From contig OY829328.1 in NCBI GenBank assembly GCA_963691655.1, forward strand, positions 11,362,704 through 11,426,703: a stretch of 64,000 nt of DNA, written 5' to 3'. How positions within the stretch are numbered: the stretch's first letter is position 1; every line of letters begins with the position of its first letter. The notes beneath the pieces are model-generated. The model ran no database searches and was not told the origin of the DNA. It was given only the letters and a program-made list of their open reading frames with translations. Below, piece by piece: positions 4,390 to 17,389 of this stretch. The translations under genes and the position numbers were made by a program. The stretch is from Toxonevra muliebris. Its lineage: Eukaryota > Arthropoda > Insecta > Diptera > Pallopteridae.

Positions 4390-5655
4390 TGTAGTATATG
4401 CTGCATTGGTGTGGTGGCCTAAGGTTATCCTCGACTATCAGCAAACTTAACAAGCTTCAAAGGCTTGCCTGTCTCTCAATCACAGGGGCTATGCGAACTT
4501 GTCCCACTCCTGCGATTGAGATATTTATCGGGCTTGTACCTCTGCACATCTTCATAAAGAAGATAGCTGCAATTACTGCCTTGAGGCTGCAAGCATCATC
4601 CAACTTAATAAGAGGTTCCACCGGATATCTGCCCCTTTTAAGTAAAATTCGTAATACCCTTATCTACTCCGTGTCAGATTTTATGATTAGGGATCTTAAC
4701 CTTGGCCGGAAATTTAATATCATCCTTTCGTTCAGGTCCGATTGGAATGCCTGATTTTCCAACTTCGGTCCCTTTGTATTCAATTGGTATACTGACGGCT
4801 CGAAAAACAATTGTGGTTCTGGTGCTGGCGTTGTTGAACCTAGCACTCGAATCTCAATTCCACTGGGCATTTGGCCAAGTGTTTTTCAAGGCGAACTATA
4901 TGCAATTTAGACATGCGCTGGACCTTAACCTTAATAAAGGTCTAAGGTTATAATCATCTTTGACAGCCAAGAAGCTCTCAAGGCAATTTCATCATGGTGC
5001 TCCACTTCGAAGCTAGTGAAAAAGTGTTTTGAAAGTCAGTTGTCTTCCTGTAACAATGTCACGCTTTGTTGGGTACCAGGCTACTGTGACATTATAGTAA
5101 TGTAGCTGCTGATGAACTAGCTAGACATGGTTCAGCGACTTTACACACATGCCCCGATCCGTTCTGTGGGATCGGCTGGACTAGTTGCACATCGATCATA
5201 GAGGCGTGAGCGAGGGACAAAAGGCTATCTTATTGGCGTTCCGCTCAAGGCGTTAGTCAGGTAGGAAAGCTTCTCCTCTCACTCTCACCAAATTCGTGAA
5301 CTTAAATTAAACGGATCTCAGATAGCTAGTAGGCTTTCTACCTGGCCACTATGTAGTCAGATACCACCTAAGTAAATTAGGTCTGTCATATGAGACAGAA
5401 TGTCATCTATATATGAAGGATGATGAGACGACATCTCACATTCCATGTGAATGCCCAAAATTAGCCTTGCGTCGGCATAGAAGGAATATTTGAAACCGTT
5501 TCAATCAACGAACGAAATTAGAGCCTTTTCCACAAAAGATGTGCTAGCCTTCATTAGGATAGCAAATCACCCTTTGTCCTAATTTTGGGGCTTTGACCTA
5601 AAAGAGCAGTACCTGACTTTCGAGTCGCCCCAACCGCTTCTTAATAATAATAATG
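4390..5655 (+). pseudogene. R1/LOA-like LINE, 3' part of ORF2, degenerate
   Basis: The plus strand reads LQRLACLSITGAMRTCPTPA and EIFIGLVPLHIFIKKIA, the block between reverse transcriptase and RNase H in R1/LOA elements. RNase H follows: WYTDGSKNNCGSGAGVV (first catalytic Asp), FDSQEALKAISSW, VTLCWVPGYCDI and AADELARHGSATLHTCPDP. A decayed LTGHYVV and a SHIPCECPKLALRRHRR C-terminal motif come next. Several frameshifts and stops break the frame. The 3' end is a TAATAATAATAATGA run at 5642-5656. It is a typical truncated, dead copy. Confidence 0.75.
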
Positions 5656-15246: not shown

Positions 15247-15698
15247 TTACCCAACAAACCAAATTACGGAATCCAGAGTCGACGGATCCGTTTACGGTAC
15301 AGTAAAAACGGTATCTGTTTCAAACTTTACAGAAAAGGAACATTTACGTACAGTAGAAGCCGTACCGTCATTCAATTTTCCGTTTTCAATCAGTTATTAC
15401 TCCGTCAAAACGTTTTCCGTAAATTCTCCGTCAAAACGGACCCATTTACGTGCCGCAAATACTCCGTTCTAAACGTATCCGTTTATTTTTCGTAAATTCT
15501 CCGTCATGTCTGTATCCGTTTGTATACCGATTGTGCTCCGTAAATTCTCATTTATATGTTTGATTTTTTACAAAATCATTTTGAAAACTGAAAATTTTCA
15601 TCAACAGAGACGACAATTGCTGATTTTGCCAATTTATGTAAGCATATCTTGAAATAATTATTTTTCTCATTTTAAAATCTTTTGAGTCAATCTTTCAG

Positions 15699-16818
15699 AA
15701 TGCGCAGTTACAAAAAATCTAGGACGGAAATTGAAATTCTTTTTAAAAGCTTAATGCGAACGGAAAGCACGACGACCGAAAAAGTGAAATTAATGCAATG
15801 CCCATTCGAAGCTCATATTGATTCTATATCTTCGTCAAGCGATCGAAAATTGGACTTAGAAATGGACTTAGAATCGAACTTAGAATCGGACTTTGAAACC
15901 CACTTATCGCTTTGGAATGATTTGGCTTCATGGGCGGTTCAATATCAAATTACACAAAGTTCACTAAATGCGTTATTTTTTTCCTCGGACATTCATCGTT
16001 ACCAAAGGATTGCAGGACTTTGAAGGAATGTACGCAAACAGAGTGTGCAGAATCAATGGAAGAAGGGCAGTATGTTCACCATGGACTAAAAAAAGGTTTA
16101 GTTGAAGTAATTGAAAAATTGGACATAAGTGAAAACAAAATTCAAATTGATTTCAACAAGAATTACAAGATATAAAAAAGATAATTAGAGAGACATTGAA
16201 AGAAGAACACCAGGCACATATGTTGGGGCAATAAGGGAGTGCCATAAGAAAATTATGGACTTAAAGCATGATATCCGAGGACTGAAAGAAACACAGAGAG
16301 GACCAAGGATTTCGCCTGACATAGCGTTTCAAAATTTAGAAGGTTTCCTGGTCTTTGAAGACGGCTTAAAAATAATACATGAAAAACAACAATTACTGGT
16401 ATGTATGTTACATCTAAGTTGCTACTGAAAATTTTTATAAGTTATGTATATTAATTTACAAGAACTTTGTTATTGTTTGTTTTGGAGAAACGAATTCAAT
16501 AGTATATCTATAAAAGACTCTGGAGCATTCATCAGAGCAGTGTGGCTATGAAGAAGAGGTTCTTCTTAACTTCACATTTTTTGGAACGAAAAACAACAAA
16601 CGGGCAATAGGGACATTAGCAACATACAAAATTTTTTCAGGTAAAATAAAACCCATCTCAATACATACATACATTTATAAAATTTTCTTGAACTTTATAT
16701 TCCTTTAGATTTATTTATTGCGAAGTACCGCGACAACGATCTGTTAAAATTAGGCACAATGAAATTGATAAACAACATTCGGGACAAAAATTTTAAGAAA
16801 TCAAAATTGCGAAATTAA
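15699..16818 (+). pseudogene. Element-borne gene with DUF4806-like C-terminus, broken
   Basis: An acceptor-like TCTTTCAG precedes ATG at 15700. The first part (RSYKKSRTEIEILFKSL, then an acidic stretch of LDLEMDLESNLESDFE) leads into WNDLASWAVQYQITQSSLNA. After a frame change in the T-run at about 15977, it continues SSLPKDCRTLKECTQT and GQYVHHGLKKGL, a pattern I associate with repetitive insect ORFs. After further frame changes come LKHDIRGLKETQRGPRISPD and NLEGFLVFEDGLKIIHEKQ, up to a GTATGT donor at about 16400. EEVLLNFTFFGTKNNKRAIG with TLATYKIFSG ends at a GTAAAA donor (about 16640). The sequence after TTCCTTTAG (16709) reads FIAKYRDNDLLKLGTMKLI to a stop at 16818. The last two exons fit DUF4806. 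Transposase activity is not shown. Confidence 0.55.
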
Positions 16819-17027
16819 AACATTACATTTTCTTTTCCAAATTGTTCAATTGTATTTTTAACATTTGGCTATTTTATTGTTGATGAAGTTGGATTTTCTT
16901 TTTTACTATTAAATGTTACATTTAATTTATATTCAATTATATTTTTTGCTTTTTAAGAATTTATAGTTTCCAATAAAAAATATGAAGGCATATTATTTAC
17001 GGAAAGTCTCCGTTTTCAAGAAAAAAT

Positions 17028-17260
17028 ACAGTCCGGAAACGGGACGTCATATCGAATTATTAACGGATCAAAGAAAAAAAAATACTGTCTGGAAACGGTC
17101 CGTCATATCGTATTATTAATGGACAAGTCTCCGTTTTTTATAAGAATATACAGCCTGTAAACTGTACGTTTTGTCGTATTTTTTACGGAAATGTTTCCGT
17201 TTTAATAAGAATATACAGTCCGTAAACTGTAAGTCTTGTCGTATTTTCACCGATTTGTAT
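17028..17260 (+). repeat. Subterminal tandem monomers, 56-66 bp, four copies
   Basis: Copies begin at 17028, 17084, 17150 and 17215, each starting ACAGTCCG(G/T)AAAC or a variant and continuing with TGTCGTATT or CATATCGTATT. They lie inside the right arm of the element and may be transposase-binding repeats. Confidence 0.7.
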
Positions 17261-17389
17261 GTTCCTTTTTATCCGTTTGCTGTACCTTTTCCGAATCCAG
17301 GAACGGATTCATTTCTGTATACAAATCCGGCACTTCTTTATCGTTTCTGGAACGGAAACGGTACGTTTTGTTTGTTGGGTATTCATGCA

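Follow-up and report, generated by a model that had tools for sequence, protein, structure and literature searches.

In maize Spm the TNPA protein binds subterminal repeats, and the En/Spm elements of maize have CACTA ends and create 3-bp target duplications, unlike the element described here. Proteins of the DUF4806/BEN type are widespread in animals and their role is not settled; we know of no relationship between TNPA and DUF4806. Transposition of Spm requires both TNPA and TNPD, with TNPD stabilizing the binding of TNPA to DNA, according to the available part of DeMarco et al. 2006 (PMC1636069). TRC elements, an animal group within CACTA, are presented in the same text as having ends that start with CCC (CCCAGTCAAC in Aedes) and 2-bp target duplications. 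TRC transposases are characterized there by motif I ([ILV]x[ILVF]x[ILVF]xxDGxxx[FY]x7-9WP[ILV]), box A ([LVI]Dx[LM]Hx3LG) and a CXXC motif. For the TRC element SmTRC1, the authors anticipated TNPA-like DNA binding by a second protein, SmTRC-PrA (PMC1636069, available part). DUF4806 (PF16064) has been called a DNA-binding subtype of the BEN domain in the accessible portion of another report (PMC11075544).

We read positions 15250-17379 of the window, the 64,000-nt stretch of DNA analyzed here (C3:11362704-11426703 in a genome of 491 Mb), as what internal deletion has left of an animal CACTA transposon with two genes (En/Spm, TRC group), a copy that is non-autonomous, with a probability of about 0.92. 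The initial annotation had noticed inverted ends, and the arms at 15248-15263 and 17366-17381 are indeed 94% complementary. The outermost TA of either arm is a copy of the target duplication, which leaves 15250-17379 (CCCAACAAAC...GTTTGTTGGG) as the element itself, flanked by TA at 15248..15249 on the left and at 17380..17381 on the right, as seen by end reading and copy comparison. The left terminal inverted repeat, CCCAACAAACCAAA (15250..15263, + strand), is complementary at 13 of its 14 bases to the right terminal inverted repeat, TTTTGTTTGTTGGG (17366..17379, - strand), which was placed by this pairing and by comparison of copies.

The arms had also been described as rich in CCGTTT/ACGGA variants, and counting bears this out. 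The left subterminal arm (15250..15560) contains 13 TCCGT/ACGGA sites, where 1000 shuffles gave a mean of 1.81 and a maximum of 6, and the right subterminal arm (16990..17379) contains 11 (shuffle mean 1.58, maximum 8). The interior of the element holds 2 such sites (shuffle mean 1.40), and the remaining window has 0.47 per kb. The four monomers previously reported in the right arm are present at 17003..17252 as diverged tandem copies of a 63-nt unit (repeat family D1) with spacings of 56, 66 and 65; the other three are 63-73% identical to the reference copy.

Searching the genome with the left arm gave at least 40 matches scored, from 114 candidates, and the whole element gave at least 68 matching pieces, with 40 of 190 candidates scored. 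Forty further loci were inspected together with the window copy, 41 copies in all. Both terminal repeats are clean in 17 of these 41 (no more than one mismatch in the first 10 bases of each), in agreement with the suggestion of the initial annotation that the locus is a transposon. The ends had been expected to pair at about 2.1 kb. The 17 clean pairs span 572-2130 bp and the 2.1-kb size is that of the window copy alone; 14 of the 17 measure 572-1102 bp, so judging the element by whether its ends pair at the expected length would have misled.

Target duplications of 2 bp flank 13 of the 17 clean pairs; in 2000 trials with randomly paired flanks the average was 4.0 of 17 and the highest count 10. 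Duplications of 1 and 3 bp are at chance level (5/17 and 1/17, with shuffle means of 4.7 and 0.5). The four clean pairs that lack a 2-bp duplication are L041, L042, L049 and L060. The duplicated dinucleotide is TA in seven cases, the window copy among them, which is what a Tc1/mariner-like or other TA-specific element would leave. The remaining six of the 13 duplications are AA, GT, TC, CA, TT and TT, which fails the TA-only rule of Tc1/mariner, and the coding remnants are of CACTA type; we consider a TA-specific element extremely improbable. The initial annotation had suggested looking for TA or longer duplications; those found are 2 bp long and are not restricted to TA.

The copies that carry gene sequence are the window copy, L039-L042, L044 and L047. 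A larger group consists of copies of ~1 kb with an interior of their own that is common to many of them; the ~450 bp interior of these copies (L048, L051 and many others) matched neither the window element nor the queries used for transposase and DUF4806. Left arms are 90% identical on average among the 28 alignable copies, with a minimum of 82%, so the family does not stem from a recent burst. When the flanks of each of the 17 clean pairs were joined and searched against the inspected loci, they yielded no usable empty site, the sole spanning match (76.7%, at L025) overlapping the query's own locus. Two of the gene-bearing copies have been interrupted by other sequences. L044 holds a nested insertion of 1453 bp in a simple repeat (positions 1051-2503; C2:42270750-42272202), with ends CAGGGATGCCAACT and AGTTGGCATCGCTG, CATACATA on both sides and a hAT-like look. 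The transposase remnant of L039 (within C1:55408369-55409276) contains a palindromic insert of ~75 nt, a small foldback element, which starts with CGTCGCCTGA, ends in the complement and has ATAA nearby on both sides.

The initial annotation described a decayed multi-exon gene inside the element, in which a region reading LPKDCRTL was combined with a DUF4806-like end, and proposed that this protein might be that of the transposon. The decay is real, with a frame change near 15970-16000; the gene is two genes joined at 16156-16158. The first is the N-terminal remnant of a CACTA/TRC transposase at 15700..16158 on the + strand, which begins with an ATG at 15700 and is cut inside motif I, two residues before DG. 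An N-terminal profile was built from five other transposase loci of the same genome. Among 1583 ORFs, the window ORF at 15921-16172 matched it with an E value of 3.4e-10, and the match stops two residues before the conserved DG. An upstream frame, 15676-16023 (WAVQYQITQSSLNAL), runs into this ORF across the frame change. The LPKDCRTL region is part of this N-terminal piece of a separate CACTA/TRC transposase; the DUF4806 protein is not the transposase, and the fusion is a deletion scar.

The junction was located by comparing the window with L041, L045 and L039, and it lies at 16156..16158, where the letters ACA are shared by both sides and the transposase remnant is joined to the second gene. 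Several of the whole-element matches break at element positions 909-911. Beyond window position 16158, copies L040, L041 and L047 enter motif I of animal CACTA (TRC) transposases (...NIDGLPLFKSSQNQ...), reading QVDFNIDGLPLLK, QVDFNIDSLPLFKSSQNQLWPILANI and QVDFNIDGLPLFKSSQNQLLPILANI, respectively, and they match transposases at other loci with E values down to 1e-15. In L045, the second gene starts from the same junction point behind a different upstream sequence, without a transposase. L039 has the window junction followed by a further deletion, which places the deleted form at two sites. By these comparisons, the hybrid gene of the window is a deletion chimera of two genes, formed at a 3-bp microhomology at 16156-16158. 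The initial annotation had looked to the copies for an intact gene, and no member of the family was found to have kept its transposase whole: with a probe of 58 aa taken from L041, just three places of the family were met (L041, L047 and L040), each of them broken. Outside the family, the same probe matched transposases of other families at no more than 61% identity (45 of 45 candidates scored).

The two-gene arrangement is kept in two complete-looking relatives in the genome, L091 and L092. In L091 (C2:103365500-103371500), a frame of 655 aa contains motif I, box A and CSKC. Downstream of it, in the same orientation, is a second gene with three likely exons; one exon matches DUF4806 at 30.5 bits, the curated cut-off being 25. 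L092 (C10:167000-173000) is 97.6% identical to L091 and has a 645-aa frame and a DUF4806 match at C10:170998. Comparison of the two sets the limits of the element at 611-4884 in L091 (4.27 kb) and 740-4965 in L092 (4.23 kb), CCCAATCGG...CCGACTGGG. Both elements have CCC ends (CCCAATCGG / CCCAGTCGG), with target duplications of AT in L091 and GT in L092. Because these ends enclose both genes, the DUF4806 gene lies inside the transposon, which is what the initial annotation had suspected of such genes. Just outside the 4.2-kb element of L092 are inverted repeats of ~130 nt (~608-739 and 5347-5478), and this copy may have landed in another inverted-repeat element. At G000:C1:72095139-72097493, transposase pieces in several frames are 53-80% identical to L091, and one open frame reaches 792 aa.

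Transposase and DUF4806 gene are separate genes in L091 and L092, and this bears on whether the fused protein of the window could be a genuine one-gene product, a transposase with DUF4806 that would belong to an undescribed superfamily. The fused arrangement is common to the window and L039, as a single gene would have it. Against such a product, transposase sequence continues past the junction in L040, L041 and L047, the second gene stands without the first in L045, and ACA is common to both sides of the junction. One fused transposase is rejected on the read-through of the three copies and the N-terminal profile match, and a one-gene product is judged very improbable.

DUF4806 was found at 14 places in the genome, all above the cut-off and some with stop codons. 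For seven of the 14, L091 and L092 among them, a transposase of the same orientation lies upstream at a distance of no more than 5 kb, where random placement would give ~0.004 (56 merged transposase loci). An eighth, C4:18046751, was found by reading to have an upstream transposase (28% identity, E 9e-21). No transposase was found near the remaining six, of which C4:53982224 was read over 5 kb and five (C2:15838635, C2:81383305, C3:53580123, C3:24603465 and C3:2516444) were checked against the transposase lists alone.

The second gene of the window copy lies 3' of the transposase, as the DUF4806 genes of related elements do. Its first retained exon (16159..16398, + strand) is decayed, has a homologous stretch in L045 and ends at a donor at 16399-16400 (phase 0). 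The middle exon, which holds the DUF4806-like core (16517..16640, + strand), has its donor at 16641-16642 (phase 1), and the last exon, with a stop, is at 16709..16818 (+ strand) by exon reading and intron comparison. The places and phases of the introns (0, then 1 after G) equal those in L091, L093 and L096. Pfam gave no DUF4806 (PF16064) match for the exons, single or joined, and a small local DUF4806 profile ranked the core exon 4 of 1374 ORFs with a non-significant E value of 0.56, below an unrelated ORF of the window. Three sequences of solved RRP9 structures matched the second gene at E ~0.04; these were taken as chance. The gene is taken as a divergent DUF4806 gene because gene order and intron places and phases agree, a gene-arrangement test that is our own criterion and not Pfam's. 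In comparison with DUF4806 (PF16064), the window gene is thus alike in order and intron pattern without a significant match, and the L091 second gene is above the cut-off; the DUF4806-like end claimed initially stands on arrangement and falls short on profile scores. The read-through gene had no match at E<=1 among 1416 candidates from a large public protein collection; animal proteins seem to be scarce in that collection, and the result is therefore no evidence of rarity.

Assignment to the TRC group draws on ends, duplications and transposase motifs. Inverted repeats that start with CCC are present in the window (CCCAACAAAC) and in the relatives, and the 2-bp duplications of the 13 clean pairs are joined by the AT and GT of L091 and L092. 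Motif I in its strict form is present in L091 and was not found in L093-L097. In the three copies of the window's family that reach the motif, it has G changed to S (L041), W changed to L (L047) or is broken after DGLPL (L040), and the window copy keeps just the residues before DG. Box A and CXXC are present in L091, and box A of L092 has N for D; neither was seen in the inspected copies of the window's family, where that part is absent. Pfam matches stayed below the cut-off for the relatives (Transposase_21 in L090, E 0.12; DUF4218 in L091, E 0.026, and in L090, E 0.0026), and Pfam gave nothing relevant for the transposase pieces of the window's family. The predicted fold of a relative's transposase had a mean pLDDT of 40.9 and was too poor for use; in its least poorly modeled stretch, residues 161-243, the order strand-strand-strand-helix-strand is that of an RNase-H fold and may serve as a hint only. 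The window element is a new family within a known superfamily, the TRC group of CACTA as set out in the available part of PMC1636069. The family had been proposed as undescribed, which is right at the level of the family and not of the superfamily.

The locus and its relatives present subterminal repeats and a cut-and-paste signature; among them are relatives with two genes and non-autonomous copies whose ends are intact. A complete element would have supplied the transposase that moved the window copy in trans. The DUF4806 protein is hypothesized to coat the CCGT/ACGG subterminal repeats and to draw the two ends together for the transposase, the way TNPA does with TNPD in maize Spm. By this analogy, we give the DUF4806 protein about an even chance of being a TNPA-like binder of subterminal repeats. 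The wider proposal, that in animal CACTA transposons the second protein is DUF4806/BEN, a TNPA counterpart that binds the subterminal repeats and brings the ends together, is tentative, a shade under even odds. Identity as a deleted two-gene CACTA copy, stated jointly with this role as the leading guess, is quite probable.

The main rival to an end-binding role is a repressor or chromatin role. More broadly, the element could be as described while its DUF4806 protein acts in repression, on chromatin or in escape from silencing, or is a passenger that some families have picked up, a possibility that we hold to be considerable and clearly short of even. TNPA-like binding is something that we infer here, no transposase was found near six of the 14 DUF4806 places, and BEN domains have been suggested to recruit chromatin-modifying factors (available part of PMC11075544), all of which leave room for such roles. 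The constant order and strand of the DUF4806 gene beside transposases of different families speak against a passenger.

A tie between DUF4806 and a transposon was not found in the available passages of the open-licence papers searched, a scope outside which Repbase reports fall; a Hydra table, in the part available, lists DUF4806 among transposase domains. A DUF4806-type second protein of CACTA elements may be known to repeat annotators; the less familiar point is that DUF4806 is a regular second protein of related CACTA elements. The idea of a TNPA-like second protein was voiced for SmTRC1 (PMC1636069, available part), and the DUF4806 kind is the added point. DUF4806, a domain of unknown function, thereby gains a testable job. 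If the repeats are bound, animal CACTA elements would be a two-protein system like maize Spm, with a DNA-binding module perhaps of other origin. If the proposal is true, the DUF4806 expansions reported from Hydra, zebrafish chromosome 4 and a beetle would for the most part consist of transposon genes or of genes domesticated from them. Such expansions, as listed in the available parts of PMC7642931 and PMC13270666, should with caution not be counted as host gene families.

Among described systems, SmTRC1 and the TRC group (PMC1636069, available part) share with the window's family the CCC ends, 2-bp duplications, motif I and more than one protein per element. They differ in end sequence, and the second proteins of SmTRC1 are described there as having no detectable relatives, whereas the relatives here have DUF4806; the window copy, moreover, is deleted and non-autonomous. 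Spongebob / EnSpm-4N1_HM is likewise a TRC element, with ends CCCAGCCAACATTGAC, a 2-bp duplication and non-autonomous copies, but it is a different family, and its description in the accessible part of PMC4298943 has no second protein. Maize En/Spm, as described in the available part of PMC1636069, resembles the window element in being a two-protein element with subterminal repeats and with internally deleted derivatives that keep their ends.
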